From Thuidium tamariscinum (lineage: Eukaryota > Streptophyta > Bryopsida > Hypnales > Thuidiaceae): a DNA stretch of 64,000 nt. Position numbers and translations under genes: made by a program. The notes beneath the pieces were generated by a model. The model made no database searches and was not told the DNA's origin. It saw only the letters and a program-made list of their open reading frames with translations. The DNA lies in contig OX344758.2 of NCBI GenBank assembly GCA_947034885.2, positions 18,627,067 through 18,691,066 on the forward strand, in the 5' to 3' direction. Positions 20,160 to 58,026 of this stretch are shown one piece after another (positions within the stretch are counted from its first letter, which is position 1; every line of letters begins with the position of its first letter).

Positions 20160-21673
20160 TCTAATCCCTAAAAGATTGTTGTCTCTTCTAGGGACAAAAT
20201 GGATTTTGTGTAGGTTTCTATGACTACAAAAAGTAAAAAGATTAAAAAACTTGTTAGCTTCATGGGAATGTAATAAGAATTTCAATTAGTGACCAAAAGC
20301 AAAAGATATTCTATCTTAAACATAATTATCATGTCGTTAGGATTGAAAAGAAATCCACAAAAACTTGAAATTCAATTTTTAATTTTTTTCCATATTTATA
20401 TTTTTGTCTACATGTCAAGTTGTGATTCATTCCATTTGGATTAGTAATGCTAAAGTTATGAACAATCTTTTTTTTGAGGCAATCTAAACATCTTGAAAAA
20501 ATAACTTCTATAGAAACTAATTTTTTAATGCACTTTTTACAATTTTTTTCCAAAAAGTTGTTTGACAAGGTTAAGTTTGTTTTCTAGAATAATCTCACCA
20601 TAGGGATTATTGTATTTCAATCCTATCTTTGAAATATTAACAATTTTGTTTTACTTTCAATCTTGCACCTACTTCTATTTAACATTTTTTTAACCCCTAA
20701 ATGCCTAGGGCACCAAAATTTAGTGTTTGCAAAACTTTGAAGTTAAAGAAAACCTAACCAAGTTGCTATTCTTAGTAGTTTGTATTATTGAGAATTTTTT
20801 GAAGTTTACTTTTAGCATCAAAAACCCGATCTTGAAAATCATTGACTATGATTTTTCTATTCAAGATTTTGTGCAAGGATACCCATTGCAATCTCAACTT
20901 TCTCTAGTATTGAGGGCTCTTGGAAATGAACCTCAAATACCCTAGATCTTGGAGAAAAAATCACATTCAATTTAAAAAAAAATTGTAGAGTAGATTTCAA
21001 GAAACAATAAATTGATTGTAGTTATGCTTGTTAGGTCCTTTCACCTCATATTTTTTTGGTCACCAACTTTATAGATTTGACTTGTGAAAAGGAGATTGAA
21101 AGACTACAATTCACTTTTCCAATTTCAACATCCTAATGGTCTAACATTATAATCTTTCAATTCATAAGTCCTATTGTTGTGTTTCTTTTCCTAAGTGATC
21201 TATAACATGTCTAGTTTGAATTTGTATTGTTACATTTTTTTAAATTGATAAAGCTCATCATAAAGTTGACTTTTTGTTCACTTTATAACAAATTCCTAAA
21301 AGCTCAAAAAGGCCTTGGACATTTATGGGTTAAAGAATAGAATTTTTCCAAACTTTCAATTGAATACTTCAACACAAATTGTTTTAATCCAAAGTCTTTA
21401 ATGCAAAAAATTTCTACAAATAGATGTCAAAATCATTTGAAACTATAAGCTAGTATTCAAATCTATTTTTTAATTTTAAATGCTAATATATTTCAATCTA
21501 TATTATCAAACTTCATTAAATTTTTACCTCATGATCTTAAATAAGTAAATTATAAGATCCTACATTTAGTTGCTTTTTAAAGTATTTTTTAAAATTTCTA
21601 GGATGAATGTAACAAAAATGGTAGTTTTGAATATTTTTTGATAGAAAAATGGCCTTGGTCCTTTATGGGTTAA
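20160..21673 (-). mobile_element. piggyBac-like MITE (main family), interrupted by a nested element
   Basis: Inverted copy of the family seen at 31026-31953. Its left end (CTAATCCCTAAAAG) corresponds to the reverse complement of that element's right end. Its right end is GGCCTTGGTCCTTTATGGG before TTAA at 21670-21673. Without the nested element (20694-21329) it is about 870 bp, the normal family length. Interior landmarks such as 'ctagaataatctcacca' match the other copies. Confidence 0.75.
20690..21333 (+). mobile_element. TTAA-flanked element nested inside another
   Basis: TTAA at 20690-20693 and 21330-21333 bound a 636-bp insert with ends CCCCTAAATGCCTAGGGC and GGCCTTGGACATTTATGGG. A related element at 42240-42300 has the same flanks joined by a single TTAA (42290-42293, followed by AGAAT). 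That proves insertion at TTAA with duplication of the tetranucleotide. Confidence 0.82.
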
Positions 21674-21862
21674 GCGGTTCTTTTGGACTCCTCTATTTTG
21701 AATTTATTTATTTAGAAATTTTATTATTATATTTTACAGCAATTTTGAAATTAAACTTTCATTTTAGGAAAATGAATGAGCTCATTTTACTCATCAGCCA
21801 CTAGTTTATTCCATTCATTGCATCATCAAAATGATTGTGTATTTAGTGGTTTATTTCAATTA

Positions 21863-22803
21863 TTAACCCCTAAAGGACTAAACTGCGTTTTTTGGCAACA
21901 TAGCGATTTTGGGCAGCTCACTACGGATGGAGTTTTGGATTTTTTTTCTTTGAAATTTTCACACAACATGTTCCCAAGGAGTATCTTGAAGGCCCAACAA
22001 TCTTCATAAATTTTGACTACATGGTCAAAAAGTTATTGTATGATATGTAGTTTTCATTGGTTGGCAGGCAGCCCAAAAATTTCTTATAAAAATATTTTCT
22101 TAAATTAAAAATTTGAAATTGGTTTTCTAGATGTATATATATACATACATACAAAGAAAGATTTGAATCTTTCTATTTGATTTATGAGATGAAAGTTATG
22201 AAGAGATTTAGTTTGCATGCAGTTATGGATTGTCTACTCTAAAATAAACTTTGGAAGCCTTTACTTTAGTCAATTTTAAATATTTTTGAAAAAAAACTAA
22301 AATTTTGGATGTTAATTGTTTGTCACAACATTACAACCATTGGGATTGTCTTTTTTTTAATTTCATAAATAAATTTTTAACAATTTAGTTTTTGAATCAC
22401 TCTCTACTTCTTTCGACTCATTAATTTTTTCCTATATGTTGTACAATTTCAAATGATGCAATTTTTTTTGAGCATATAGCTAACTTGCCATGAAGAATGA
22501 ATCCAAAGAAGCACCATTATTTTGGAAATTTTTTCATAGAAATGTGACCTTGTGAAGTGCAGTTGCTCAATTTTTTGCAGGGACAAAAAAAAGGGTTTTG
22601 TCAATTCAAATGCTAATATCTTGCAATCTCCAAGGTGGAAATTTCTGAAATTTTTTCAACATCTTTTGACACCAGTGTATTACAAGATCCTACGGTTAAA
22701 TGTGTCAAAAAATGTTTTTTTTTCAAAATTTGGTGCTTGTAATAGAAATGGTTGTTTTTGTGTGTTTTTGGTGAAGACATAGTCTCTAACCTTTAGGGAT
22801 TAA
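21863..22803 (-). mobile_element. piggyBac-like MITE
   Basis: TTAA at 21863-21866 and 22800-22803; ends CCCCTAAAGGACTAAAC and GTCTCTAACCTTTAGGGA. The right half, read in reverse, has the same layout as the left half of the 31-kb element. Small ORFs inside lack protein-like features. Confidence 0.75.
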
Positions 22804-23138
22804 CAATAACTTTTAGTAATCACCAAATTATTATGGTTCACTCCACTTATTATCCTAACTATTTATAATTTCATTTATGAAAAGTTTACACTTTTAAAAT
22901 CAAAGTTTAGTGTGTGGCATACTTTAAAGAGTCAATTAAAGGAGAGACATCTTCTTTGCCTTAGAAGAGTTAGAACAATCATTAGAATTATTTACAAATG
23001 TAAAAATCAACTATGTCAAAGCTTCTTACTAGAAAGATTTTGATTGATGGTCACAGCTCAATCCTTAGAAGACCAAGCGCTTTTAACTCCTAAAGCCCTA
23101 AGCTACGTTTTTTGGCAACATAAGTTTTTTGGACAGCT

Positions 23139-24211
23139 GTAGTATAGTTTTTACATAATTCAACTCTTCAACCCCCAAGAACTCTTCTCTCATGGAAGAC
23201 TCAAAAGGTGTCAAGTTGTGGCTTAAGCTATACATAATTAAAGCTACACAAATTTGAATGGTATCACTAGAAGAAAACTACATTGTATTTGACAAAAACT
23301 GTATTGAAACTGTGTTGCATTCAACGTAACGCGTGGAGTGGATTGTGTTGAAGTCCTGCTTTGTCATGCGAAATTTTTCATTCTAACACAAAATTCTGCG
23401 TTTTCCTTATTCAATTTTGTGTTGACATGTTGAAACGCATAATTTTGCGTTATGAAGGGAGAACTCAACACAATCCACTCCACACGTTACGTTGAACGCA
23501 ACATAGTCTTTGTTAAGTAAAACACAAGTTTGGCAAGTTTAACGCAAGTTTTGGCATGAATAGTGTAGTTTTCTTCTAATGTATTAATTTGACATGTAGA
23601 CAATTTAATTTCACTATTACACCAACCATAGAATGACTTGACAAATAATCCCATACAAATTTAATGTAACTAGAGTGTTTGCTTCTTATAAAAAAAATCG
23701 ACGAGCAATTCCTAAACTACGACACACTATTGTGTACCAAATTGATAAGAAGATGACTTGCCACCTGCAAGCCAATATTATAAATTGATTGCACCGCTTG
23801 TGCAAACTACTTGAGAATTTGCTACACTACTCACCATCTATGAGCTAGCAAATTGACACAACTTACAATACACCAACAAGACACACAAATTGTTTTTTAT
23901 TGATAATGTCTATATACAAGTTGACTCCAGAAAACTATAATTCCAATTGCAATGGATACGTAAGAGAGAGAAAAAAGAAAATCAACTAGACTTAAAGTCA
24001 AGTGGGAGTAATAGAAAGACATATCTATTCATTTAAGTTGCCCTACTTCAAATCTTTTCATTTAGTTTATTTGATATCTAATCTTGTAAATTGTCCTTCT
24101 ATATTGATTATCAACTGATTTATCATGGTCCAATGGAAATACAATCTATTAGTTACTCCTATTTACACTAGAAAAAATGAATAGACAATTGGAAAATTCA
24201 CGTGACTACAG
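23139..24211. mobile_element. Nested insertion flanked by CAGCT
   Basis: The foldback arm is interrupted after CAGCT (23134-23138) and resumes after CAGCT (24212-24216). The insert begins GTAGTATAG and ends GTGACTACAG. It carries the CACTA-like MITE at 23265-23581. Its family is unknown. Confidence 0.55.
23265..23581. mobile_element. CACTA-like MITE with TAT target duplication
   Basis: Ends CACTAGAAGAAAACTACA and TGTAGTTTTCTTCTAATG, flanked on both sides by TAT (23262-23264 and 23582-23584). Plant CACTA transposons end CACTACAAGAAA and make 3-bp duplications. Internal arms pair around the Acc/CG-rich words 'cgtaacgcgtggagtggattgtg' and their complement near 23470-23490. Confidence 0.8.
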
Positions 24212-24632
24212 CAGCTCACTACGAATGGAGTTTTTTTTTTTTCTTTGAATTTTTTACACAAGATGGGCCCAAGGAGTAGCTTTAAGGCCCAAAATTTTCA
24301 TAACTTCTGACTTTGTGGTTAAAAATTTATGGCATGATATGTTGTTTTCTTTACTCAAAGGGCAGCCTGGACAGTTGAAAAAAGTTTTTTTAAAGAAGTT
24401 TTTTCAATAGTCCGGGCTGCCCTCTCAGTAAAGAAAACAACATATCATGCCATAAAATTTTAACCACAAAGTCAAAAGTTATGAAAATTTTTGGGCCTTA
24501 AAGCTACTCCTCGTCTCTTCAGGCCCATCTTGCGTAAAAATTTCAAAGAAAAAACAAACAAACTCCATTCATAGTGAGCTGTCCAAAAAACTTATGTTGC
24601 CAAAAAATGCAACTCAAGGCTTTAGGAATTAA

Positions 24633-26030
24633 TTCATTTATTTTGAAATGTACAAAAAATAATCTTTGTTGAAGTGGTCATTCCTTTTTGTACATTAGTA
24701 TTATAAGTTGGACTGTACTTCAAATAAAGGTTTGTTTTTTTATAACATTTTGATCAAGAGTAAGTACATTGGAATTCCTACATGCATGAGAAAGGTCTCT
24801 TTTGTGATATACAAAAACTTTTGCAATGCAAAAAATTACATAGTCCCCTAATGACTATCTTGCCACTACCAATAATTTATAGATTTTTTGAAATGTTTAA
24901 AATAATTTTACCTTTAATCACTATTCATTAAGTGTAAATGTTTTTTTTTCTATGTTTTTGATAAAGAAGGTTTATGAATTGAAATATACACTAGCCACAA
25001 AAATTTGTCTTCATATTATGTTGAGTTAGATCCTATGAAGATGTGGTTCTCCCATTATAAATCATTGTTCCACTTAGAAGTTTGAAAACCTCTGAAATGG
25101 TCACAAATTCCAATTGTATAATGTTGTAACTTTACCATTGATTGATAGTTGGAGGGATAGGAAAAGGTAATAACTTAACTTTAAAATCTTAGAGCCTATG
25201 ACCATATTTTCAAACATCAAAATCTACTACCTTGGATGCTTGATTTTGACATAGAAAATGTTTGGATTTTTTATTTTTTATTTTTCAAAGATTATGTCAC
25301 ATGTCTTCTATAGGCCATAGAAATTTCAGATTTTTTTGAGATTATTTGAATTGTGATGATTCATTGAAAATAAATTGATAAAATAATAAATAAAAAATAA
25401 GCTATAAAAATTTGAATTTTTCACCATGTGAACATTATATGAACAAAATTTCCATATCAATCTATAATTAAAAAAAAATAGAATACCATGGTTATAGGCC
25501 TGTAGTTCAAATGGTGAAAGAAAATTCAATTTAGAATAGAAACTAGACTTTGCAAGCTTCATTTCATTAGTAAGACTCGAAAAAAAAATTTAATGATTAC
25601 ATTTGAGATCAAGAGCATGGTAGGAATTCGCCAAATATACAACTAAAAATGCATATTTTGTAATGTGTCCATGGATATAGTATCTTCTTTTCTAGAAAGT
25701 TATATAGTTCTTCAATGACTATTTTCTACTATTACTACAAAGTAATGTTTCTACACTAAAATAATTATTCCTTTAAATTAGGTTTATGCATCCATTTTTT
25801 AGTGACATTAAGGCATGGTTGATTGTTGATGAGCCACTTTATTGTCGCATTGACATTTCAAGGTTAACCTTGTAATGATGCAATGTCCTAAAATTGTCCA
25901 ATGAATAAATTTCTAAATCATTATTGAAATGAAGAATGCACCTATTAGTTTAAAAATCATATCTAAAGGTATTTTTTGACCAACTACAATATATAAAATT
26001 AATAAACAAGTAATATAGGTTGAACTTAAT
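24633..26030. other. AT-rich intergenic DNA
   Basis: No gene, RNA or clear repeat recognised. Short ORFs are random in AT-rich sequence. Confidence 0.4.
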
Positions 26031-26252
26031 TTAACTCTTAAAGGACAAAGTGGTCACTATGGAAATTATCTATTTTGATACTGTGTGAATCATTGGTTAA
26101 AAAACAAAACACTCATTGGAAGTCAAACTATTGTAGAGGATCTCCCTTTTTCATACAAAATTTCCAAAGTGAATAGTTGCACTTCTATCCCACACAAAAA
26201 GATTCCTTATCATTCATCAAACACTAAATGTCTATGTTGACATTTAAAGGTA
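26031..26252 (+). mobile_element. Short TTAA-flanked element, second copy
   Basis: Starts TTAACTCTTAAAGGACAAAG and shares 'ggaagtcaaactattgt' and 'gatctcc' with 18260-18494. It probably ends near ATTTAAAGGTAA at 26243-26252. The boundaries are approximate. Confidence 0.45.
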
Positions 26253-27380
26253 ATAATGTGAATGTAGCATGATTGATAAGCTATACAGAAAAAAATTGAT
26301 GAAAAATCATTGATTCTTCAATATGAAATGGAATGTTTGACTATAAATCATATCCAAATGGTTTACAACATTCATAGAAGGTTGAGAACAATTACAAGGT
26401 TGAGAGCCTAGGCCATCAATGCTTAGATGCCGAAATTGAATTTCCATGTCAAATTCTCAAGGGTCTACATCACCTCACACTAATCACAAGATGGTGTGTG
26501 GCATATTTTTTACAAAAAATGACTTAATTTATACCAAATGTGACCTTCACATACAATACTAACTACTAATAACAATGACCACATTAGTGAATTGGCAATG
26601 AACAAAAAAAGTCTCAATACTATGGAACATGCAAAGGTATGATTCATTGCAATAGAACTTTAAATAAACAACACTCCCTAAAGTAATAAACTTCTTTTCA
26701 AAAAATTTGATTGTTGGTTGCCCCTTACAAATGTCATGAATGCAAATTACCCTCCCTTAATTTAATCCTAAAAGGGCCCAAAAGCCCTAAGTAACTATAT
26801 ATAATATTATGGATACAATGGTATTTAATCAAAAGAAAATTGACTAAATACTTTTCAATGTGAGGTAAATCAACGCTCATAATCATATGTAAATAACAAT
26901 GTATCACAATTCATGTATGAAATCACAATTAAAGTGTTGTAAGGCTAAATATGAGTCATATAGAAAAACGTGAAGGCCTCTCTAGGATTGAACAGCTCTC
27001 TATTGTAATACGATAAATCAATCCCAGCCCCATTGCTTAATAGCAATTCTACTTTAACCAACTTTAGTTTGGGGTACGTTCTCACCTGATATTAAAAGAA
27101 GTACTATGAAGAGTCCTAGAAACAAATTTAGATCTTCAAGATTGAATTCGCATCAAGCATCACCCTTGACATCAGTACTAATACCAAGTGCTAACACACC
27201 CTTAACTTGATGTGGACAGTTACATTCAACCCCAAAAGATCACCTACTCTACTATTGAACCAATAAGTGCATTCTTTGTTTCTACAGTTCACAGTGAAGT
27301 CATCCATCGGTCCTTTCATCCACCGGTCCTTTCAGATCCGCAGCGTCCTGGTTGCAAGCGGCATCAGCAAGATCAACCTG
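26253..27380. other. AT-rich intergenic DNA
   Basis: No gene recognised. A sequence like a TTAA-family left end (TTAATCCTAAAAGGGCCC) lies near 26763 without a matching right end. Confidence 0.4.
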
Positions 27381-27515
27381 AAAAACCTCGAGTCATTTGG
27401 ACCTTCCGGCTATCAAACTAATCTTGCAACAATGCATATGCTTACGTTCAGCAGCACTAGGTTCATGATTAAGATCTCTGCTCAAGACAGAAGCAGCGTA
27501 CTCTACATGTATTCT
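27381..27515. repeat. Diverged dispersed repeat, copy 2
   Basis: Counterpart of 14775-14905 (shared GAGTCATTTGGAC, TTCAGCAGCACTA and 'tcaagacagaagcag'). It lies about 0.9 kb past the stop codon of the CKS gene on that gene's 3' side. Confidence 0.5.
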
Positions 27516-28379
27516 AGAATTACAGTAGCTGAAAACCACACGCACACGCAACATTTTAATGAGAATTGGATCTGCAAAACCTTTTACCATTTTGAATATG
27601 CCAGAAACATACTACGGTGCTAAATCAAGTTACAATGCGAAATCGCCAGACATACATGCAACGACAAAAAAAATGACAATAGTCCTCACAGACGGGTAAA
27701 CGGGTTAACAAAAAAACAAACTATTGATAAGTCTTGAAAGAGAAATGGTCCAAATGGCCAGAGCAGCAGAAGTTATTGCCGCTATAATAAAGAATCCTTA
27801 CTTAGAGCACACCAAGAATGAGATCAAATATGAAAATATAAACGGTCTTAGTCATCAACCAGTGAAAGTTTCTTCTGAAAACTTCGTAAGATTAACCTCC
27901 CACAGGATGGATGACATCAAATCCTCCGTGAAATAAAAGCTACATCTAAATATAGTTCACATCAGCGACCACTGCGTGGACAAGGCAGCTGAACCTATCA
28001 ACGTAGAGTAGGTACTAAAGTCCCAAATACACGCATGTAACATCATAAGCGCATGATGTATGCTTCGTGGAATATGAAGATCGATTACCAGAAGTAACTG
28101 GAAGATTCTTCAGTACTTGATATTATCTAATCACACAACAACCACACATTAGTCACTGAGTTGTAACCTCTGAACACAATTCCAGTTGAGGTCTCTACCT
28201 CCCGCGATTCCTGTATAGAAAGAGTAGTAACATGAAAGAAGACTTCGTGAGAATAGACGAAGGTTACATGTTCCAAATCCACTTGGCTCCTTAAACCATA
28301 GATCTATAATTTAACTCGATGACATTCAAGTAGCAAACCTAATCCCCCGAGGAGATAGACTAACCTGGAGAGAAGACGA
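27516..28379. other. 3' flank of the CKS gene
   Basis: More balanced base composition than the deep intergenic DNA. It probably includes the CKS 3' UTR on the minus strand. No further coding region could be supported. Confidence 0.4.
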
Positions 28380-29308
28380 CTAGGCTTTCATGCCAGCAGC
28401 CTGCTGCTGCTGAACAGCGGCAGCTTGCTGAGGCTGGCCGTAGTTGAGGGGCCTGCGAAAGAGCATGATGTGTGGCTCGGGTCGGTGAATGGCATAATGT
28501 ACCCACCCACGCGACTGCTGGACTCCAATTCCACGCCATTCAGCCTGTTCTCAATCACAAAATACGAATTCATTAACACCGGTACTTAGACCCAGTGAAA
28601 CGCGGCGCCTGGGGCCTGTTTTGGTACACCGAGAGGTCAAGACATTGAACATACTTAGCTTCGTCATATAGAAAGCAATTAATACACCCTAAACTCCTTC
28701 AATTGCTAACCCAATTTAGCTACCATCAAAAACTTATGCATTCTCATAATAGGAGATAAACTCAATCGCTTTAAATGCGTTGTATCTGCAGGACGAATAT
28801 TGATATCTCTTTGCGTGAACAGAATTAACAAGAAAAATTGGCATGTGATACTCCTCAATCGCGTCACGAGAAGAGGCACTGAAAAATTGACGTAAAATCT
28901 CAGACGGCATACCTCAGACAGCAGTCGGTTCTTGGGTAACAACTTCGCAATGTCAGCGGGGAGCACAACATGCCTGAGCCATCCCACAAAATTAGTACAA
29001 AGTTCACATAACCAAAGTTCATAAACCAACGTATTCAATCCAAGCAGCCGTCAAGCACCAACCATGGAACAATGTCGCACCCGGCTGAAAATTCGGGCAA
29101 TCCAATAACCATCCCCACCAGCGTCACGCAGCGTATGAGGCCAAGATGAACATATGGCAAATGACAAGAAAACGAGGAGAAATTACAGAAGCCACATCCA
29201 TGAACCTCAAAATAGCACACTCAGCCCCAATTCCTCACTTCCACAATACACACACCTGTACTCGTAGGTGTCATCGAAATACTTCTCGGAGTACTGAATC
29301 TGCGGCAT
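28380..29308 (-). CDS. CKS1: Cyclin-dependent kinase regulatory subunit (CKS1/Suc1), 3 exons
   Basis: Small adaptor that binds CDK and phospho-Thr and promotes multisite phosphorylation in the cell cycle. Minus-strand exons are 29308-29256, 28973-28913 and 28544-28380. The introns are GT-AG, and the spliced ORF encodes 92 residues. The protein starts [18 protein letters not shown] and continues [20 protein letters not shown]. Next come [17 protein letters not shown] and [18 protein letters not shown], which carry the Suc1 signatures, including the HxPEPH β-hinge and the phosphate-binding Arg/Trp residues. A Gln/Ala-rich tail (residues ~76-88) ends GMKA. Length and sequence match plant CKS proteins (~85-90 residues). 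Each exon is too small or frame-split to show as one ORF. It appears intact. Confidence 0.95.
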
Positions 29309-29692
29309 TCTTCCGGTCTTCTCTTTCTCTCCCAATCCTACATAGTGTCCATAAAGCATAAACCCGAAAGACCGTCACAAACACAGATCGCAAAGAACAT
29401 GAGATTGCTACACAGTAATGCGCCAAAAGAAAAACCCTCCAACGAAAAAGACACCCAACTCAAGCAGAGAAACCCACCAAGGATTTCGCAGCGGACAAGA
29501 AAGAGGAAGGCGATCTGGAAATGTAGAAACAGGTGAGCAGCGAAGTGTACCGTGAAATCGGAGAATACGTTCGAGAGGGCGAGAGGATGGCGGCGTGCAG
29601 GGGACGCAGAAGCGAAAGGGGAGCGGGGGAATTTCAAAAATGGGCTGTCGAAGCTGCGAGACGGGTGACGCCCTCCATCAACCCGTTGTCGC

Positions 29693-30086
29693 TCTGTTCA
29701 TTACAACCGACCTCTTGACTTCGTTCATTTCCCTTCTCTCTCTGTTCATCCATACTCCTTTCGATTCTCTGTACATCCTCATGGTGGTACTCTGTTCATC
29801 CATACTCCGTTCTCCGGTCATAGACTCATAGTTGAGTCCGTCTCTGTTCATTTTCCCATCCTCGGAATGCTGCGATGCAACCCGTTCATCCTTCAGTTTC
29901 GAGTGAGCATGCGAACCGTTCCCCTGTCGTTCTCCCGGGGATTGATACCCGGTGAAAGCTCGTGACGCAGACATCAACCGAGGGTCTAGTGTTGACTTTC
30001 CCGGTTGGGAGCAGGCAGCTCCAGTGGAGACCGGAATAGGCCCCCATATGAACATTATAATCAGAACTTTGAATTTCTGTTCATTG
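29693..30086 (-). promoter_or_regulatory. CTGTTCAT motif cluster upstream of the CKS gene
   Basis: The 9-mer TCTGTTCAT starts at 29693, 29741, 29791 and near 29841 and 30076; shorter GTTCAT cores lie near 29722 and 29884. Two of these sit in identical 18-bp copies (29741-29758 and 29791-29808) exactly 50 bp apart. The cluster is 0.4-0.8 kb upstream of the CKS start codon in a GC-richer island. A regulatory role is inference; it could be a small local duplication. Confidence 0.35.
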
Positions 30087-30194
30087 GAAGTGCATTAAAA
30101 AATACTTTGCATGTGAGCAAGGAAACTCAAACTTACACATTGGACATATAAAATAAACCAAACCAATTCATAAGCTGGTCAAAAGACAAAAAAT

Positions 30195-30361
30195 CATTAG
30201 AAGAAATCTGCGTTTGCCTCAACAAAATCTATAATTTGATGTGTTCATTGAGGCAAATGTAAAAATTGTGTTTTATTGCATTCTTCAATACAATTTTTGC
30301 ATTTGCCTGAACAAACACATCAAATAGATTTTGTTAAGGCAAACATAGATTTCTTCTAGTG
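30195..30361. mobile_element. CACTA-like MITE with AAT target duplication
   Basis: Ends CATTAGAAGAAATCTGCG and AGATTTCTTCTAGTG, flanked by AAT at 30192-30194 and 30362-30364. The interior is a near-complete foldback (TTGCCTCAACAAAATCTA with its complement). At 167 bp it is a smaller relative of the element at 23265. Confidence 0.8.
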
Positions 30362-30364
30362 AAT

Positions 30365-31025
30365 ATAGTGGTATGCTACATTTAAGTGCTATTAGACTGT
30401 TCAATGAATTTTTGAGAAAACATGCATATATATTCGGATGTTTTGTATTGATCTTCTAATATTTTTCATTATCTACTAATGACCGTTTTTTTTCTCTTGA
30501 TTACCATTATTAATTGTGGACTTTCAAAAGTCCAAAAATAATTCAATGTGGCAATGGAATTGACAAATGAAAATTACTAATGCACTTTGCACTCCAAGTT
30601 GGTGCAATTTGGAGTGAACGTGCATTGGTAGATTTTAAGTTTTTAATATCACTATAATTTCTATTCTCTACTTAGCTTTTGAAGATATTTATTATTCTTT
30701 GCCCAAAGTCTAAATTTGAGTATTCTTATATCTATCCAAAGTACTTTTGAATGCTCTTTCAATGATAGAGATTTCAACTTTTAATTCCAAGATGGTAAAA
30801 ATGTTAGATTTATATTTGATAAGCAAAATTCTTGATTGCATGGAAAAGGCTCTAAGTATAACCATCATCACCCCTAAACCCACTTTAGTACTTATTTTTA
30901 CTTGTCTAGCATTATAAAAGTTGAATATTGAAAGATTATAGATATGGACCAAATTGATGATGATGGTCCAAATAGATATATTGGCCCTTACTAATAGATT
31001 CAATACATCAAAGATGAATATTAAC
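30365..31025. other. AT-rich intergenic DNA
   Basis: No gene or repeat recognised. Confidence 0.4.
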
Positions 31026-31953
31026 TTAACCCCTAAAGGACCAAGGCCTTTTTTCTATCAAAAATCTTTCAAAACTGCCATTTCCGTTGCATTCACCGAA
31101 GAAAACAAGAGAAAATAATTTTTTAAGAATCTAACCACAGGATCTTGTACTTAACTTGATTGAGATCATGTGGTAAAAATTTCATGAAGTTTGACCGTAT
31201 AGATTAGAAGATATGAGCATTCAAAGTTGGAAATACAATTTTTTTTGAACTGTGGACTGCAATTTCAGATGACTTTGATTGCCATTTGTTGAACTTTTTT
31301 GCACTATAGACTTTGAATTAAAAAAAATTTGTATTTAATAATTGAGTTGAGAGTCTAAAAAAAAATTTACACAAAAAACACCTGATTTTCATTCTTTAAA
31401 AAATTGTTAAGTAGATGTAGGTCCAAGATTTAAAGAAAAACTAAATGGTTAATAACTCTAAGGTGGGATTGAAATACAATAATTCCAATGGTGAGATTGT
31501 TCTAGCAAGTAAACATAACCTTGTACAACAATTTTTTTTTGAAAAAATGTGAAAATTGCATTTAGAAATGAATCCTATAGGTTATTTTTTTGAGAAATTG
31601 TTTAGATTGCCTGAGAAATAAGATTGGCCATAACTTTCTCATTATAAGTCCAAATAGAATGAATAAAAGCTTCACATGTAGGCAAAAATATATTATTTCA
31701 GAAAAAAAAAATTTAATTAAACTTTGAATTTTTGCAAAAAAAAATTCTGCCCATTGAACGAAAATTTGGGCTATTTGTGGTATAACTTTTGCTCCCGGTC
31801 ACCAGTTGAAATAAAAATTACATTTTCACAAAGCTAATCAATTTTTCTATCTTGTGAGAAAGTTTCAAAAGGTTTCACCAAAAATTGAAGTCTACGGAAC
31901 TTGTCCGAACTCCAAATTGTCCCCCGAAGGGACAATGGTCCTTTAGGGGTTAA
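31026..31953 (+). mobile_element. piggyBac-like MITE, best-preserved copy
   Basis: TTAA at 31026-31029 and 31950-31953 bound 920 bp. Ends are CCCCTAAAGGACCAAGGCC and GACAATGGTCCTTTAGGGG. The four C/G bases next to TTAA resemble the CCC start of piggyBac ends. No ORF over 100 codons and no DDE/D transposase motif seen; presumably mobilised in trans. It serves as the reference for the family. Confidence 0.8.
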
Positions 31954-34423: not shown

Positions 34424-35142
34424 GAGTGATTGCAAGAAACACTTGTCCTATTTTGTCACATGTTGCATGCTGATTTGTTTTTTGGCCATAACTTTTGTAT
34501 TTTAGCCTCGATTGACTCAAGATCTTCAGGGAAGGTACTCATAACTATTATAAACCTTCCATAATTTTTTCATAATTTTCAAAAATAGTTTACTATCCAA
34601 ATTGGACCCCAATTGGATGTTACACTTGGCAATTTAGGGGGTTTTAGTACTGGGGAGTACCTTTTTTTAGTGATTTTAAAATGAAATTTAGATGAGATGG
34701 TCTTCTAGTATATTTCTAGCTCTCCAAGGAAGTATTTTTAAAAATAGTTAATTTTATGTGGTGTGGAGGTCTACAAAGTGAGCTCCCTTTTGCTTATATT
34801 TTGAAACACATAAAATATTGTTTTGGTGGGTTTTCTAGTGAATGACCATCTCCATAAAGTTGTTGCAAAAGTACACTTTTTATTTTTTGAAAATATCTAT
34901 TTTTACTATTTTTACCTAATTAAAACATGAAGATATGTATTTTTTGGAGGTTTGGGACTTTTCAAGTTCTCCTACTTAGAGAATTTTTCTATTCATTTCC
35001 TTCGGTGAAAACCTTCATCTTAGAGGTATATACATTATTCATATTTTTCAAATTTAAAAAAAAATAATTTTCTAATTTTAAAGTACTCCCAAAAAAATCA
35101 GCCAAATGCAACAAATAGGACAGGTGTTTCTTGCAATCACCC
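34424..35142 (+). mobile_element. TTGCAAGAAA-ended MITE, copy 2, ATTG flanks
   Basis: 719 bp, ends GAGTGATTGCAAGAAACAC and GTGTTTCTTGCAATCACCC. ATTG immediately flanks both ends (34420-34423 and 35143-35146), a possible 4-bp target duplication. The interior is collinear with copy 1 at 18560. Confidence 0.75.
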
Positions 35143-37399
35143 ATTGAAGCTTTTGGAGCCTTGAAAAAAAACATTGGGAATGTAAGAAAATCCATACAAT
35201 AGAGGCTATGGAATAAGTGGGGAGTGCAATTTGTGTTAAAAGTCAAAGTGTTTGAAGTATAAGTATAAGTTTCAAGTTGCTACTAAAAGCTTTAGGCATA
35301 GTTAGGAGACTAATTTGATCCCCTTTTAGGAGTTTGACTACGTGTTAAGCAAAGATTGTTGATTAAAATACCCATAGTCAACCAATTGAAGTTGTAAGGT
35401 CTTAAGTATATTTTTAATTAGTACATATGAAGCTTATGTCATTACAATTGTTTGATTTTTAGAATAATTATAAGCTAATTAGTAGTAATTGAAATTAAAG
35501 ATTGTATTTCTAAAATATTCCAAAAAATACATGACAAAATACAATATAGAAAATAAGTTGGAGAAAGCGAAGAGGGAAAATATCAAAAAATAGATCATAG
35601 GTTAAAAAAAGAATTAGATCACAAATAGAATTTGTACACCTTGTCGTAAAAGTTGTTATTGAAGTTGTATACGAAGAGATAAAAAAATGCAACAAAAATG
35701 GATGAAGGCAAGCCTCACAATACACTGATAGTATACATGTTGGACAATAGAAATGTGGTAGAAATGGATTCCTAGGCATATCCAAAAATTTTGTACTTTG
35801 TCATTTCTCTTATTGTAGGAACCGTAATTATATTAGAAATTAGAGGTTTAAATCAAACCTTTTGAAAATTTACTAAAATCCAACTTTGAATTCTAGATCA
35901 CTTAGATAATTTTTAGAGGTTCTACTAACATATCATACTTTATAAAATTTGAAAAAATTAGGAAAGACAAAATACAATGAAATTAGATAGTCAAAATCAC
36001 TAGCATTACATGAAATTTGAGGGCATTAGGAGACTACGGGTTTCCGGATTGCAGAAATGTAGTTTCTGCCCTGTGAATTTGAATCCTACGTAGTCACGAC
36101 CTTACTACGTAATTTTTTTTTTCTTTTCAAAATTTTTTTGACTTATTTTCATACTTCAGGACCCCATTTAAAAAAAATTAAAGCTGGCCTAACAACGGCC
36201 AGTGGCATTGGGAGCTGTTTTGGGAACACACCTGAAACGGCCTTGTAATGCCTTCAAATTTCTTCTAATGTTTTAGATTAAAAATATCAAAATTCATCTA
36301 ATGTAAGTAAAAAATCCTTAATACTTAGATGACATTTAAAATCCAACTTTGAAAGTAAAAATTAATTTGGGCTTATAGGCTAGAAGAAAATGTTGGATGA
36401 AGTCTTGGAGGATGAATTATAAATAAAACTTCATCCATCAATAATTTTTGCTAAAAAATACCATTATAAAGGTTTTTATTACTAATTTAGAATAGGCATA
36501 TTATATTGTACAACTTAAGCTAATAAATAATAAAAATTTGAATTTTTCAATTTGGATTTGGAAATCTAGAGCTTATGCTTAGATTGGCCAAAACCATTCA
36601 AAACTTCTAATTTCTACAAATTTGTATCAATTTTAGTTAAGTTGTGATTAATTTCTAGTTTGATGTTAGCTAGAATGTTAGAAAAAACTTATTTATTGTA
36701 TAAAATACAAAATGAACAACTTTTAAATATCTAATTTAGGATTCAAAGCCCAACAACAAAGAATGTGGTTGAATATACTTTATTTCAAGGATATAGATAA
36801 AATTTCATGCATGTCATCATTGTCATGTATTGAAGTGTTTTTTTTTTTTTGAAAGGTTCTCAAAGATGTCATCTTATAAAAAGTCTCTATAGGCCATACA
36901 AAAGTCACATAATTATTCATATGATGATTGAGGCTCACCATGGACATATGTGCACTTATAGTCTTATATTGCAATTAGAAGATGGTTGTTTGGATGTTCT
37001 TACAAGGATAAAGACCTCAAAAGCAAATCCTTTTTTTGTTATAAAATGTTTTTAAATAGTGCTTGTATAAAATACTTTTTCTCCTATACACTTTGTACAT
37101 AGATGTAAATACATCAATAAACACATGAGATGTGCTTCAATGTCTTTTTTATTGCATAATTGTAGGTGTTTAAGGCTTTGCAACTTCACTTCAAACATTT
37201 TGTAGGATTAGAGTGTGGCAACATTTATCCATTTTGGATCAAATTTGATTGATAAATTAGCTTAATTATATAGTAGTCATTTACATGCCTATTTAGGTCA
37301 AATGACTAAAGCAAAGCTTGTTCATGACTAGGGCAAGTTGCATAATTAAAGTCTTAAAACCCTAGTTTCCACTTCTTTGTAGCAGCCCCTGATTTAAGG
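35143..37399. other. AT-rich intergenic DNA
   Basis: No gene recognised. A short GC-richer patch at 36030-36120 ('ctacgggtttccgg', 'cctacgtagtcacg') stands out but has no coding or repeat assignment. Confidence 0.4.
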
Positions 37400-37745
37400 C
37401 ATAAGAGGATTTTGGGGCTTTTGGGAGACTATTTTAGGGTTGTTCCTTCAAATTGTTTCCAGTCCTATAGACCAGTCCCCTGCTGGTCTGAGTTTTTGAA
37501 TTTTGAAAATAAAATAAAAATATTTTTTCCAAAAAAATTCAGAATGTATTAAAAAGCAAGAAAATGATTTTAAAAATATTTTAAAAACATTTAATAATTA
37601 ATAATTAATAAAAAAATTAATTAATTAGTATTTTCTAACTTGGTAGTCACTTGACCACATCAATATAGTATTCCTAGCATTTCCAATGTGTTCCCAATAT
37701 TTGGGAACTCGCAGTCTTATAAACTAGCCAAAAATCCTCTTATGT
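37400..37745 (+). mobile_element. CATAAGAGGATTTTGG-ended MITE, copy 1
   Basis: Ends ATAAGAGGATTTTGGGGC and GCCAAAAATCCTCTTATG. Interior blocks ('cagaatgtatta', 'tttgggaa', 'gcagtctta') match a second copy at 60983-61325. Confidence 0.68.
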
Positions 37746-37799
37746 TTTGAAAACAAATTATCATTGTTTGTAGCTACCCCTTGAAAGCGGAACATTTGA

Positions 37800-38215
37800 A
37801 TATCTTTGTTTCTTTCTCTTTATTTCTTGTTGCCTCTTTGTGTTTGCTTCTTGTTGCCTTTCAATTGTTTAAAAAAAATTTCTCTTGTTAGCTCTAGCTT
37901 CTTGCTTCGTACTTCTTGTTGCTTATTTCCTCTTGTTTTTTCTGATTTTGTATTTCATGTTGTTATTTGTTACTTCTTATTTGTTCTTGTTGTTTCTTTT
38001 ATTTTTGCTTCTAATTTCTTCTTGTTGCATCAAAGTTCTTACTTCCTTTTGTTGTTTATTTTCTTTTCTTGTATTTTGTTGTATCTCAACCTATATTTCT
38101 TATTGTATCTTAAATTCTTAATTCTTGCTTATTCTTGCTTTTTGTTGCATCTTGTAGCATCTTACCTTTTGCTTGTTGTTAGCTCTTAGCACTTGCCACT
38201 TTTTGTTAATTGGTA
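37800..38215 (+). repeat. Pyrimidine-rich CTTCTTGTTGC-type degenerate repeat
   Basis: A strongly strand-biased T/C tract with many variants of CTTCTTGTTGC. It leaves a 127-codon frame open that reads as Leu/Phe/Ser/Cys with no domain. I regard that as composition, not a membrane protein. Confidence 0.55.
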
Positions 38216-38263
38216 TTGTTGAAGCTATGATTGAGTAGCTTAATTGAATGTCAAAATAGGATG

Positions 38264-39184
38264 TTAACCCCATATGTTCATTGACTATGTTTACTCCAAA
38301 AGCGGTCAAAAATTGCCATTTCTAGTGCTAATACCAATTTTTTTTTTATAGATTTATAACCATAGGATCTTGTGGTAAAATGGTTTGAGAACATGTGGAA
38401 TTTTTTTTTCAGTTTTTTATCGTATAGATTGCAAGATATTAGCAATTGAATGTTCATAAATAATATTTTTTACCCTACAGAAAACAAGGTATTAGCTTTT
38501 TAGTAAGCAACAATCATACAAAAAATGGTTAAAAACAATTATACTTTTTGGGATTCATTGTTGAAGCCAAGTAGGATACATGCCTAAAAAACTTCAATTT
38601 ATTTGGAATTGTACAACATATAGGAAAAAAAATAGGAAGTAGAAGGAACTAGCAAATGATTCAAAATACAAAATTGTTAAAAATTTCTTTAAGAAATTGA
38701 AAAATGTCAATCCCAATGTTTGCAATGTTGTGATAAATAGTTTACATCCTATGATTCTATTTTTTTTGAAAAATATTGAAAATTGAGTAAAATAAAGGAC
38801 TTCAAAGTTTATTTTAGAGTAGAGAATTCATTATTGTCCGCAAACAAAAACTCCTCATAACTTTTGATTCATTGATCAAATTGAAATGATTCAAAGCTTT
38901 ACACACAAACCTAAATGAAGAAAATCAATCTCAAATTTTAGTATTTGAAAAATGTTTTTTTTTTTCAATCTACCCAAATTGCAATTATGAAAAAAAGTAA
39001 CATATTAGGCAATAACTTTTTACTTGTATTTCCAAATGTCCTATATTTTAGTGCATTTGAAAGATATTCCTCTTCCCCACTTTATATTGAAATTTGGGCC
39101 TGAAGTAATGAAATCTCTAGTTACACATACCTGCCTAAAATTATTATATTGCTAAATTTAGTAGGTTGGTCTTTTAAGGGTTAA
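38264..39184 (+). mobile_element. piggyBac-like MITE (diverged)
   Basis: TTAA at 38264-38267 and 39181-39184, 913 bp between. Ends CCCCATATGTTCATTG and GGTTGGTCTTTTAAGGG. The internal order ('aaattgccattt', 'ataaccataggatcttgt', 'agattgcaagatatt') follows the 31-kb copy. Confidence 0.7.
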
Positions 39185-40156
39185 TAAATACATAGAATAT
39201 GGAATTGTGAACTTGTTAGATATATAGTAATGAACAATCCAAAGTAATGAATGTAAAACTCATCTAAGGTATAAAAAGGAATCTATTGCATACACAAATG
39301 AATCGTGAGCTTAGGGTGTAATGTTGTGAGTGTTATCTTCAATATCCTCCTTTGTTCATAGCGTTACTATTTTGTTTTGCAATATACAAAATGTTGTGAT
39401 GCATCTTTCTTCCTACAAATACACTTAAGATCTTGAGTTTACTTATTGAATGCCTATCATTGGTGAGTGATTGCTCATGTTTCTTTAATTTGAGTCGGTA
39501 TTTTATAGTTGAGAAAGAAGAGCTAATTGATCCGGAAGTTAGTTGGCAAAGTCAACTAATTTTTGTATTCTTTTGGTGGTTGGTGATTGTAATTTGACAA
39601 CCATGCTACAAGATTTTTGAGATTTGTAACTTTATATTTTGATTTCTTCAAGGAGGTTAACAAGTTTCACATTAATTTGATAACACTACATCTAAAATTG
39701 TTAGGGTTCATAAAATTATTGCTAGTAGTAGTAAATAGAAGGATCTTGTGATGTATACTCACTACAAGGGAAATGGGTCCTAATTTACAAAATTTTGACA
39801 AAAAAATGTTCGAAATGATAGCTTAATGTTCGAAACGGCAGCCACAACTTTTGAAAGTTGGCACTTTGTCAATGCGGTCAATTCTTCAATCAATTTTGAC
39901 AAACAAGGTTAATGTCTTCTTAGAAACCCAACAAAATTTTACATATAATTTTTATTTTAGATACAAAATGATGAAGTTATCATTTACTAACACTATGAGA
40001 AAATGTACCTCATTGCAATCTTCAACTACTCATCATCAACACCTTAACATTACTTGTTTATAGGGGAATAAAACTCCCATTATATACTTTGAGTGATAAG
40101 AGGTCGACCAATCCATATGGGATATATGAATTCTTAAAGTTGTGAGAGCTCATAGT
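39185..40156. other. AT-rich intergenic DNA
   Basis: No gene recognised. CACTACAAGGGAAATGGG at about 39761-39778 looks like a CACTA-type end, but no partner end was found. Confidence 0.4.
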
Positions 40157-40560
40157 TAAGTTAAAAACCCAAAATTTTGTATTAAAATTAGGATTTTAAA
40201 CCTCATTTAAGCGTAGTAGAATGTCTTTTTTCAAAAATATTTGAATTAAGATTAGTTAAAATATGAATTGGAGTTTCAAATCCAAAAATCCATTTGACAT
40301 TTCAAGTTTTCAATCAAAAGTTATGAATAGATTTCAAAAAGGAAGTTTGAAAAAATGTAATAAGAACAATTTCAAACACTTCTTTGAAATTCCATAACTT
40401 TTGATTGAAAACTTGAAATGTCAAACGGATTTTTGAAGGCAAAACTTTAATTTATTTTATAACTAATATTAATTTAATTTTTTTGAAAAAATACATAATT
40501 ATACTATGCCTAAATGAGGTCTGAAGTCCTAGTTTAAACACAATTATTATTTCTAACTTA
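40157..40560. mobile_element. Large foldback element, copy 1
   Basis: Two arms of ~200 nt start TAAGTTAAAAA and end TTCTAACTTA. Both contain ACCTCATTTA and TTTGACATTTCAAGTTTTC or their complements. It shares its outer parts with 49026-49398. Noncoding. Confidence 0.7.
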
Positions 40561-40586
40561 ATACTTACATTCTTGCTATGTTTATT

Positions 40587-42695
40587 TTAATCTTTGAAGG
40601 ACCAAGAGTTCCTTTAGAGAATTCTTAACTTCTTGAGACTTTAGGCAAGTTCCTATAATCTCAATTTTTTTGAAATAATTTGAAATTTTCTCATCATACA
40701 ATTTTTTTAATAAATTCATAGAAATATAATTTTTTAATTTCAAATCAATGCTTGGAAACAAAAGTTATGCCTTCTTTAATATAGTTTTCATGTCATTGTC
40801 TAGAAAATTTCTACAATAACTTAAATGTTTTTTTCTTCTTACAAATCTTATACTTTTCTACATGAAAAGCTTCTATTCGTTCCATTTGGATTAGGGAATA
40901 GGGATGTGAAAGTTATGAACAATCTTGTTTTTTAAACAATCTAAGTATCTTAAAAACAACAACTTATAGGATTCATTTTTGAATGCAATTAATTTTTTTA
41001 TAAGGTTTACCTTTAAAAGACCAAGGCCTTATTTTTGTAAAAAAACACTCAAATCTACCATTTCTATACTAAAGAATTAAAAAATCTGAATTTTTTTTAA
41101 CATCTAACCATAGGTTTGTACACCTAATTAATATGAGGATGTGTGTAAAAAAATTTCAAAATTTTGTATCATATAGATTGCAAGATATTTGCGTTTTAAG
41201 TAAGAGAAACAAATTTTTGAGCACATTGTAGGGACTAGATTATTTGGCTTTGAACCTTCTTAACTTTAATTTTTTGCACTATATAGAGTTTGAGCTTTGA
41301 ATATTTATAGTAGACAATTCAGTTGAAGGTCTAAGGAAAAAAAATGAATTCTAAAAAACTTAATTTTTATTCTTAAAAAAATTGTTATTTAGAAGTAGGT
41401 ATGAAATAGAAGGAAAATCCAAATTAATAATAATATATGTGAGATGGAATTAAAAGGCACTAGTCCCAATGGTAAAATTATTCTAGAAAGAAAAATAAAC
41501 CGTATAGAACTTTCTTTTTAAAAACTTGTAAAACTTGCATTCAAAAATGAATTCTTTAAGTTATTTTTTCAAAAAGATACTTAGATTGCCCCCAAAACAA
41601 GATTGTCCATAATTTAATGCAACTTATTCAAATGAAAAAAATCAAAGCTTTCTACATAGACAAAAATATAATCTATGAGAAAAGAAATTCTAAAAAGAAA
41701 TTCAAAATTCAAATTTTTTTTAGTGTTTGGTCTCCTTTGTTTTGGATATAATTTTTGTTCATGGGTACCAATTAGAGAAAAATTATATTTTTATGAAGCT
41801 ATTTAGTTATTTTGTCTTCAAAAAAAGTTTTAAGAAAATCATTAAAAAAATTCAAACCATAGGTACTTGCTTGAAATCCCATTTGTTCACTAAATGGACA
41901 ATTGTCCTTTAGGGGTTAAGTTTGTTTGCTAGAACAATCTCACCATTGAAATTATTGTGTTTCAATCCCATCTTACATAAGAAGAAATTTAGCCCTTGCC
42001 TAGAGTTGGTTGATTGCATGAAAATGTGCAATTACAATTTAAAAAGAAAAAATGCAACAATTTTTTCTTGGCCCATGTAGATCACTTGTTGAACCAAGTA
42101 GGATATGGGACTAAATTTATTTATTTTTCTATAAAAAATAATAAAATAATAAAACTTTACTCTTCCTTTAGATTTGCACATTGGCCAAAAGTCAAATGGC
42201 CCTTTGTAGGGTCCAAATTTTCTCTAATGGAGATTATAATAATTGAAATTTTCCTTTCAATCTTTGATCTACTTCTACTTAATAATTTTTTAAAGAATGA
42301 TAATCAAACAACATGCTGCAATAAGTGTTGTTTTTTTAGTTTTTATTCCCTAGACTTTCTACTCAATTCTTCAACATTATAAAGGGATTCAAAGTCTCTA
42401 GATAGTGCAAATTCTTTTTGCAAATGGGAGTCAAGGTCATTTGAATTTTGAAATTGCAAGTCAATGTTCAAAAAAACTTTTCTTTTTCTAATTTTGAATG
42501 CTAGTATCTTTCAATGATCTATTTGGACAAATTCCATAACAGTTTTATCATAGTCATGATCTTTGACAAGTAAAATACCAATTCCTATGGTTAAATTTTT
42601 TTTCTTAATTATTTTTTGGGATGAACCCATCAAAATGACACGACTCTTGAGTGGATTTTTTTACAGAAAAATGGCCTTGGATCGTGAGGGGTTAG
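40587..42695 (-). mobile_element. piggyBac-like MITE (inverted), interrupted by another copy
   Basis: The left part, 40587-41005, starts TTAATCTTTGAAGGACC. The right part, 41920-42695, ends GGCCTTGGATCGTGAGGGG followed by TTAG. A second family member sits at TTAA between them. Relative to the copy at 20160 the right part carries about 250 extra bp around 41975-42235. The region 42240-42300 preserves the empty TTAA site used by the nested element at 20690. Confidence 0.7.
41006..41919 (+). mobile_element. piggyBac-like MITE nested in an inverted relative
   Basis: Ends CCTTTAAAAGACCAAGGCC and GACAATTGTCCTTTAGGGG, flanked by TTTA (a one-base variant) and TTAA (41916-41919). In the related element at 20571-20574 the same flanks (aagg and gtttgtttt) meet at a single TTAA. 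Confidence 0.78.
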
Positions 42696-42750
42696 GCTTC
42701 GGGTGCTCTGGTTTCTACCTGTCCAGAGCACCTGCACAACTGCAGTATCC

Positions 42751-45330
42751 GGACTGGCCTTCCACCGCCCCTTCGGCAGTTGCCTCCCCTCCACGATCAT
42801 AATCAGGGAATAATAATTAATCATTTCGCATCAAATTGAGCGACACCCTCGTCCAGTACGTGATCAAAAATTTGACTAACAAGTTGGCGTGCACTTCAAA
42901 AGTCCGAGTACGTACGTCCCTGGGAAATGGATTCACACTCAGGATCATCGATCAAGCAACTTACAAAACGAATTCGGACTAACTTACAGTACCCCACCAC
43001 ACACTTTCAGTTGCAGTTTGCGGGATATTGATCTTACGTGCAGGGCAATGCCCGAGGAGCTGAGGAGGGCCGACGAGGAGGGTGGAACCCAATGAGGAGG
43101 CTCTTTCATTGTGCAATGCCTGGCCACAAGAAGCTTGGCTTGGCGTAAGCAAATCACGGGAAGAAAATTGGGATGAAATCGATAAGACAATTAAACATGA
43201 TGATGATTGACATGAAAAATGCGTAATGCCCGATTACATGGGCAATCCTCGTGATTGAGCATTAAGTACACCCTGATTGCAGCACAAAAACTCTCTGCCT
43301 CTCCGCAAAATGGAAGGGAAGGGCCATTTTCTTCCCGTGGTTTACGATATATTGGATTACTGTCGTGAGCTAACTTAATTAGAACCTTTGACTCTTTGCA
43401 AAATTCAATTGCAAGAGACACAGCGGAAATGGGGAAGCAGGCGGACTAGTAAGAGTCGCAGAGATGTTCACCAAGAGAATTGCCCAAATCGGCGAAGAAT
43501 GATGTGCCGTTTTCTGTTTTCTTGAGGGAAACTCATGCATGAAAATTTTGCAGTTTGCTGATTTGGCCCTCTTCTAAAGTAGGCCACATGCGGTTAGCCT
43601 TGCGGCTTTTCAAGCACCTACTCGAAGTTAGTGAGCGTCCACCACCCAGGCATGTATCCAGGGATGATGTCGTCTGCAATCGAGATTGTCAACACCCAAA
43701 AGTTCCGCGTTGGATCACTAAACAGCCTGGACTGTTCTGTACATTGAAAATTTACACTTTTGATTCTGGAAGTAAATTTTTTTATCATTTGGGAGAAGTA
43801 GTCACCTATTTCCTCAATACAGTACTCAGGTGTTACTTGGGTGATAGTTCAGTGACATGTAAAGTAGTCTGCTCTAAAAGTGATTGTATTCTAAACGTGA
43901 ACCCTATCTAGAAACAAGTGACATCTTGTTTGAAATATGTAATTTTGTCAATGATGACTTAGATTTATGAGCAAACTACCTTATATCAAAACTAGGTGAC
44001 ACCTAGATAACATTCAGCTATTGTTTACATATTCAATATTAACCACTTAACCCCTAAAAGCCCAAGGGGTTAGGACAAAACACAAATGTGTTATAAAATA
44101 TAAGTGTTACAACTTTTTTGAAGTTAGTATTATAGAAGATAATGTAAAGCACAAAAAGTAGAAAGTATCCATACAGTCAAAGTAAAAAAAATATTTTTAG
44201 ATTATTTTTAAATGAATTTTGAAGATATAACTTCAAAAATTCACCAAAAATACAATTTCTATTCTTAGGATTTGAAATTTTTTTTGATTGGTCAAAATTG
44301 TGTTTTTTATTGATTTATATAAAATTTCAAAATATTCAACCTCTAAAAGCCTAAGGGATTAAGACAAAATACAAATGTGTAATAAAATATAAGCTTTACA
44401 ACTTTTTTGAAGTTAGCTTCAAAGAAGATAATGTAAAGCACAAAAAGTAGAAAGTATCCATATGATCAAAATTTAAAAAATATTTATAGATTCTCTTCAA
44501 ATGAATTTTGAAGATATAACTTCAAAAATTCACCAAAAATACAGTTTCTATTTTTAGGATTTGAAATTTTTTTTGATTGGTCAAAAACTCAAAATTGTGG
44601 TTTTTATAGATTTGTTAAATAACAAAAAATATTTATTAATGAGAGCATCAATACTTCCCCCAAATAGTAAGTTTTTCAACACTAAGCAATTTTAGACACT
44701 TTGTGCTATTTCTACTTTTTTTTGCTATAACTTTTATTTGACCTTATAGATCTTAGTTTTGAATGCAAATGTTGAAATACAATCCAAAATTTTCAGATTT
44801 TGAAAAAGAAAAAGTTGAAAAAAGTTGTTTTTTTGCCCAAAAATGCTGCCCGAAGTTGGGTAGCGACCAAAAAATGGTCACTTGAGCACTTAGGGGTTAA
44901 GACTATTTGTTTGTTTGATTATTTGTCAAGTTGAAATCTCCTGGACCATGCTTCCCCAAGTCAAAGTCTTCATACCATTGGATAGCTCTTGGCAAAGAGG
45001 GGTGCATGGGCTTTGTTTTGTAGCATTTTGACTCACTGTGAGAAAGTTATTGGATTTCAAAAGTTTTATGAATTGGAAAATTGGAAAATTGAAGAGTTAT
45101 TTTTATTTTTATTTTGGTTGTAGCAATGGCACAAGGCACACTAGTAACCATTGAAACGGGCATTGAAAGAAGCTATGGCTAGACCACTCAAAAGTGTCCA
45201 ATAAATGACTTCATTGTTCATTGTATAAACAAATATATGGAGCATTTTGGTGACTACTTACTCACAAGGGGTGCGCCCAAGGAGATTACTTGTGGTTTTT
45301 AGAAAACTACGAGAGTTAAAAGATAGGATT
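42751..45330 (+). repeat. Segmental duplication, unit A (left part)
   Basis: Begins GGACTGGCCTTCCACCGCC and is collinear with 53935-55970; the first ~700 bp are nearly identical by eye. It contains a 68-codon frame (42889-43095) kept open in both copies, ending AMPEELRRADEEGGTQ after a possible splice acceptor (GTGCAG). The opposite strand is also open in both copies, so I cannot tell coding from recent duplication. Similarity resumes after the transposon at 44047-44900. Confidence 0.75.
44047..44900 (+). mobile_element. TTAA-flanked element inserted in duplication unit A
   Basis: TTAA at 44047-44050 and 44897-44900; ends CCCCTAAAAGCCCAAGGGG and GAGCACTTAGGGG. Unit B has no element here: its uninterrupted flanks join at TGAA (55231-55234). 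Inside, the first ~270 bp are directly repeated (44048-44317 and 44340-44615). Confidence 0.8.
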
Positions 45331-46609: not shown

Positions 46610-46610
46610 G

Positions 46611-50762: not shown

Positions 50763-50998
50763 ATCATCATAACAGTGTAACACTGTAACCGGTCGTTGAG
50801 CACTTAATTCGCGATCGTCTCATCGTCACTATCACTATCGCCACCAACTCTTCTTCGATCTCCCTCCGATCTTTTCATCGATAGGAATTCCTTCAGAGAG
50901 GGCTAGTACGTTGGGTTCAACTTGGCACGAGGAGTGTCGTTGTAATTCGCCGTTGTAGCTAGATTGAGTAGCTAGCTGGGTTCATCATCGCTGAGCGA

Positions 50999-57748: not shown

Positions 57749-58026
57749 CGACGCACATAAATACTGGGGAAATGACGTTCTTGAAGCAATTCATTTGGAA
57801 GTTCATCCTTTTGGAAGAAATCAGGTGACTGTAGGCTTCTGTGTAAATTAGTAGCACAATTTCTGCAACATTTACAACAGCATTCTTTTGTACAACATTA
57901 GAATACTCAACATTCTTCAATTCTCGATCAGTTTGCCAGAATTGGATTGGAAACTGAATAGCATTTCCAAAATTTGGAAGGAAATTAATTTGTGAACATG
58001 AGCACATGTCCCTGTGTGGATGAGCA

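Follow-up and report, generated by a model that had tools for sequence, protein, structure and literature searches.

The 64,000-base stretch of DNA analyzed here (the window) contains repeats whose ends are inverted repeats of the TTAA-CCCCTAAAG type, and our analyses indicated that these are almost certainly non-autonomous elements of the piggyBac superfamily, similar to miniature inverted-repeat transposable elements (MITEs). Judged from sequence, the genome probably also holds native helpers for them. The features found were a TTAA target duplicated on insertion, inverted ends starting with CCC (weak in the element at 38264-39184) and, for one family of the window (family A), a DDE_Tnp_1_7 transposase domain in an element on contig C7 with homologous ends. 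A preliminary description of the window had proposed a piggyBac origin, which was borne out by TTAA at both ends of 38 of 39 genomic copies, by empty sites, and by DDE_Tnp_1_7 in relatives with homologous ends.

Element ends and uninterrupted sites in the window

All nine TTAA-flanked starts given in the preliminary description were found to be termini of repeated elements (Table 1), which occupy 8,816 bases of the window by coordinates. Two of them, at 20160 and 40587, were re-read: they are indeed element ends, but are the far ends of reverse-oriented, interrupted family-A elements. Family A is represented in the window by 31026-31953, 41006-41919 and these two interrupted reverse copies (~20161-21673 and 40587-42695), and family B by 21863-22803 and 38264-39184. 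A scan of the window with the 17-base end core CCCCTAAAGGACCAAGG, from which TTAA was omitted, gave 15 matches with up to four mismatches. TTAA, which begins at 0.8% of window positions, was directly outside ten of these matches, and three more were preceded by a one-base variant (TTTA, CTAA or TCAA); the remaining two, at 31922 (within an element end) and 34640, had neither. Six order-2 Markov windows used as background had means of 1.5 matches at this threshold and 5.0 at five mismatches. As the window had eight further matches at five mismatches (three of them beside TTAA), close to the background number, these were considered to be mostly noise.

TTAA was present on both sides of six of the seven two-ended elements, and the left side of the seventh, 41006-41919, reads TTTA; each of the interrupted hosts has CTAA at one end. 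The two ends of an element, compared over the 16 bases inside TTAA, matched at 14, 13, 13, 12, 10 and 10 positions in six of the seven two-ended elements, and at 8 and 9 in the interrupted hosts, with at least 10 matches being reached by 35 of 3,939 random TTAA pairs. The element at 38264-39184, with 5 of 16 matching, could not be defined by its inverted ends and was recognized instead by its homology to 21863-22803. The end sequence CCCTAAA (e.g., at 31030-31038) has the same letters as the plant-type telomere repeat, which is probably a coincidence.

The proposal that three insertions have an un-inserted counterpart within the window was confirmed by alignments. The elements at 20690-21333 and 41006-41919 both sit in family-A copies, and the corresponding site is uninterrupted in other copies of that family. 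For 20690-21333, the relatives at 31590-31167 and 41572-41362 both span the insertion point. The site originally offered for this insertion, 42290-42293, serves as a third comparator (42249-42298), but its match reaches just 5 bases past the TTAA. Uninterrupted sites for 41006-41919 were identified at 20368-20629 (TTAA), 31716-31459 (TTAT) and 41615-41436 (TTTA), in alignments that have a ~15-base gap slightly to the left of the junction. For 44047-44900 the uninterrupted relative is 55018-55343, whose target letters are TGAA, as had been described. The 44047 insertion is hosted by a repeat of 1.35 kb, present at 42751-44050 and 53935-55234 with 86% identity.

Genomic copies and piggyBac transposases

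Searching the 363-Mb assembly (19 contigs) with the element at 31026-31953 produced 6,856 first-look candidates, and the 40 that were scored were all full length. The 39 other copies were 89-95% identical to the query, and the one copy not flanked by TTAA at both ends had TTAA and GTAA; tabulation of flanks thus did not show the 3-bp TTA/TAA target that the preliminary description had left open. Joined flanks of the 39 copies and of three piggyBac loci were compared with the sequence already collected, and a spanning uninterrupted relative was identified for seven of the 39 copies (L019, L026, L036, L040, L042, L043 and L045) and, in the same comparison, for none of the three transposase loci. 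TTAA is read in one or more of the comparators of L019, L026, L042 and L043 and in none of those of L036, L040 and L045, for which the comparisons show the break point and not the target letters. The comparator for L019 and L026 is a ~276-bp repeat with inverted ends AAGGTAGGTACACCC on both sides, which is present in the window at 3060-3329, 4923-5201 and 13591-13761, and also in L003, L026 and L065.

The piggyBac transposase domain (PF13843, DDE_Tnp_1_7) had 659 first-look candidates in the genome. All 116 that were scored, with E-values from 5.7e-80 to 1.4e-70, exceeded the curated cut-off, and they were distributed over contigs C1 to C10; there was no match in 14 control genomes. By hand count, 74 of the 116 had no stop within the matched stretch, and several loci lay beside or within the same MITE families as those of the window. 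Translated frames of L049, L053, L057 and L059 matched PF13843 with E-values of 4.7e-79 or below. In a strict motif test, five of 12 frames (L049, L057, L059, L060 and L063) had all three of the TIDE, MDNF and GVDxxDQ blocks, which we take to carry the catalytic aspartates. The transposase lineages (L049; L050/L052/L059; L053/L055; L057) were 30-52% alike between groups, and such deep splits among several lineages may reflect a long residence of piggyBac in this genome.

The advice to look for autonomous relatives with the same kind of ends led to elements encoding DDE_Tnp_1_7. When the first 20 transposase loci were taken with 1.5 kb of flanking sequence, paired CCCCTAAAGGACC ends were not seen, because those elements are longer. 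The element on contig C7 (1354927-1360069) is 5,143 bp long, has an open 774-codon frame and ends in TTAACCCCTAAATGCCC and TTAACCCCTAAGTTCCC. Bases 1-281 of 31026-31953 match its right end (71%) and bases 875-928 its left end (81%), with both matches running inward from the terminal TTAA in consistent orientation; the left end is also matched by 41006-41919 (67% over 141 bases). The C7 transposase aligned to PDB 6x67 (E 2.9e-33) and to piggyBat 9c0f (E 1.3e-22), and these alignments include the TIDE, MDNF and GVDxxDQ blocks. Family A was the only family of the window linked to a transposase-bearing element. In viral contigs, relatives of the C7 transposase gave one pattern match and none that was confirmed, and the exact 21-base element end gave 0 matches.

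A second autonomous element, with ends TTAACCCTGAAACGCC and TTAACCCCTAAACGCC, was represented by nine loci (L059-L067) that were 99.9-100% identical over at least 3,984 bases, and two more loci, outside the nine compared, share the score of this group. The nine have a common start TTAACCCTGAAACG, the boundary TTAACCCTGAAACGCC and unrelated flanks, and for two of them the sequence read extends to the far end, TTAACCCCTAAACGCC. The element is 5,096 bp including both TTAAs, and 1,023 consecutive codons in it are free of stops. The near-identity of these nine 5-kb elements probably implies recent movement of the L059 lineage; for the loci whose far end was unread, recent copying by another route is the alternative. 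At position 217 of L061, the terminal TTAA of a MITE is the exact starting point of a full piggyBac copy, which would fit a hit on the MITE's own target duplication. Elsewhere, L053 and L054, ~7 kb apart on contig C8 and in opposite orientation, are 99.9% identical over 4,113 bases, for which duplication or a local hop is offered as the explanation.

Mobilization and alternative explanations

Based on these data, full-length elements elsewhere in the genome would make a piggyBac-type DDD transposase that recognizes inverted ends starting with CCC(C)T, cuts an element out and inserts it in TTAA, so that the copy comes to lie between two TTAAs. What we infer from the sequences is that the elements are mobilized in trans, that they are excised cleanly and that they were active recently or still are.

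Non-autonomous Kolobok or Sola3 elements would likewise duplicate TTAA, which is the target of Sola3, and we consider them a very improbable source of the window repeats. Kolobok shares the TTAA duplication and is present in some algae, but has a different transposase and 5'-RR ends (PMC9587614), as opposed to the 5'-CCCC observed here, and the transposase adjoining homologous ends belongs to PF13843, which argues against both. The preliminary description had also entertained a PIF/Harbinger (Tourist-like) origin of the MITEs, in which the target would be 3 bp (TTA/TAA) and the ends would carry an additional terminal base. TTA and TAA are indeed contained in TTAA, and Tourist-like MITEs are described as common in plants in the relevant part of PMC10004981. 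However, the fourth base was constant (38 of 39 copies are bounded by TTAA on both sides), which together with the empty sites speaks strongly against a 3-bp target, and the relatives with homologous ends bear a piggyBac transposase, no search having been aimed at Harbinger transposases themselves; we therefore regard this explanation as extremely improbable. Contamination of the assembly with transposases from another organism might be suspected, as piggyBac is best documented in animals. This too appears very unlikely, given PF13843 matches on C1 to C10, several of them beside or inside MITE families of the window, and the exact junction of L061 with a MITE's terminal TTAA.

Several observations weigh against the piggyBac reading. 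Transposition was inferred from sequence and not observed, and no transposase reading frame was found in the window elements, in which the longest stop-free stretch is 366 bases. The 39 copies are the best-scoring matches to a query that contained TTAA and not a random sample. The C7 element was read in one copy only, a second TTAA-CCCCCAAATTAA further out leaves an uncertainty of 12 bases in its right boundary, and the middle of 31026-31953 has no match in it. Window copies differ from each other by 20-32%, the best family-A genomic copies are 87-99% alike (40 copies compared pairwise, median 93.5%), and the C7 relative is just 71-81% alike at its ends. These last values would suit true piggyBac relics, i.e., window families that lack a working helper and whose movement ended long ago, a possibility that we nonetheless find rather doubtful, as identity reaches 99% in some pairs of family A and 99.9-100% among copies of another piggyBac lineage. 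On the most far-reaching reading of the data, native piggyBac transposons are naturally active today in a plant, probably a moss or another whose sperm swim; intact elements of 5 kb would be multiplying as identical copies and mobilizing native MITEs in trans, following a long residence. The case for and against this is, in our judgment, evenly balanced.

Window features, known systems and significance

Table 1. Elements of the window and an uninterrupted partner site.
Feature	Position	Strand	Evidence
Family-A element, interrupted by 20690-21333	~20161..21673	-	Homology to 31026-31953 on both sides of insertion; ends TTAACCCATAAAGG (21673) and decayed CTAATCCCTAAAAG (20161)
Non-autonomous element, 644 bp including both TTAAs, within family-A copy	20690..21333	+	Ends TTAACCCCTAAATG / TTAACCCATAAATG; empty sites 31590-31167, 41572-41362, 42249-42298
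Family-B element, 941 bp	21863..22803	+	Ends TTAACCCCTAAAGG / TTAATCCCTAAAGG; 72% over 633 bp to 38264-39184
1,550-bp element	23083..24632	+	56-base inverted ends; internal fold-back of ~380 bp in right part
Family-A element, 928 bp, uninterrupted	31026..31953	+	Both ends perfect TTAACCCCTAAAGG; 39 further full-length copies in genome; ends homologous to C7 piggyBac element
921-bp family-B element, opposite in orientation to 21863-22803, with weak inverted repeats	38264..39184	-	Homology to 21863-22803; TTAA at both ends; 5/16 inner end bases match
Family-A element, interrupted by 41006-41919	~40587..42695	-	Homology pieces to 31026-31953 on both sides; ends TTAATCTTTGAAGG and CTAACCCCTCACGA
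Family-A element, 914 bp, within another family-A copy	41006..41919	+	68% to 31026-31953 end to end; uninterrupted site 20368-20629 with TTAA; left end TTTA
Non-autonomous element, 854 bp	44047..44900	+	Ends TTAACCCCTAAAAG / TTAACCCCTAAGTG; left 270 bp repeated inside (44338-44613, 88%); uninterrupted partner 55018-55343
Uninterrupted partner site of 44047-44900 insertion, reads TGAA	55231..55234		Within uninterrupted relative 55018-55343

A Pfam scan of ten window frames, one of which (in the 40587-42695 host) came from within an element, identified genes and no transposase. Frames for UPF0193, ELO, CENP-S and two LRAT proteins passed the Pfam cut-offs, and a weak CKS match fell below its cut-off; an Rfam scan of the window at gathering scores gave 0 matches. 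These genes are compatible with a land plant and not specific to one. Given the link of UPF0193 to cilia and the plant-like look of the CKS sequence, they may point to a plant whose sperm swim, for example a moss. The LRAT-domain gene is a tandem duplicate (50760-52012 and 56783-58030, 88.6%).

A second repeat family, with inverted ends of the GRGTNATTGCAAGAAA type, is present at 18560-19287, 34424-35141, 46610-47344 and 61840-62591 of the window, and also in L069 (~1775-2814). Target duplications of 4 bp (ATTG, TATG) may be present in two of its four window copies, and the other two show none. Possible further element starts of the TTTAACC/CTCTTTAAAGG type, at 18260 and 26031, are 71% alike over ~200 bp, without a recognized right end.

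The piggyBac of T. ni and piggyBat share with the elements described here the TTAA target, short inverted ends starting with CCC, and a DDE_Tnp_1_7 domain with the same conserved blocks, and passages of PMC10813416 and PMC12732532 likewise give CCC as the beginning of piggyBac ends. They differ in that the host here is probably a plant, with lineages 30-52% alike. The autonomous elements, at ~5.1 kb, compare with 2.1-3.5 kb for intact beetle elements (PMC12732532), and animal elements in general can reach 9.5 kb (PMC10813416). The piggyBac-derived MITEs of animals, e.g., corals, are similarly short and non-coding, with TTAA and piggyBac ends, whereas those of the window are 0.6-1.5 kb, nested in one another and in a probable plant host.

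The superfamily had been described to us as rare or unreported in land plants, which holds only in part, and we do not claim that it is unreported in plants. Natural occurrence in plants is called occasional, with red algae as the example, by a 2025 paper (PMC12732532), and plants are named as hosts without detail (PMC8086355). The label PiggyBac, however, is already in use: as one of seven angiosperm MITE superfamilies (PMC10004981), for 1,230 copies in the C-fern repeat table (PMC6890710) and for one 75-bp entry in a grass (PMC8319324). The plant MITEs so labelled (PMC10004981, PMC6890710) probably belong to the same superfamily, but the passages concerned give no target, end or transposase evidence, all three of which were examined here. 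A term search of a review of land-plant elements (PMC9033089) gave no mention of piggyBac. An apparent mention in PMC10619864 was discarded, the text match being the word 'piggybacking', and no title on bryophyte piggyBac was among the literature matches listed, most subscription papers being outside reach.

In animal genetics, piggyBac is one of the main tools. The documented natural range of the superfamily would be widened by a plant genome in which strong transposase matches are numerous and are accompanied by identical recent copies and by MITEs that match. If this reading is true, such a genome would be a source of plant-adapted transposases, and the origin of piggyBac in a plant, by old inheritance or by horizontal transfer, would become testable.

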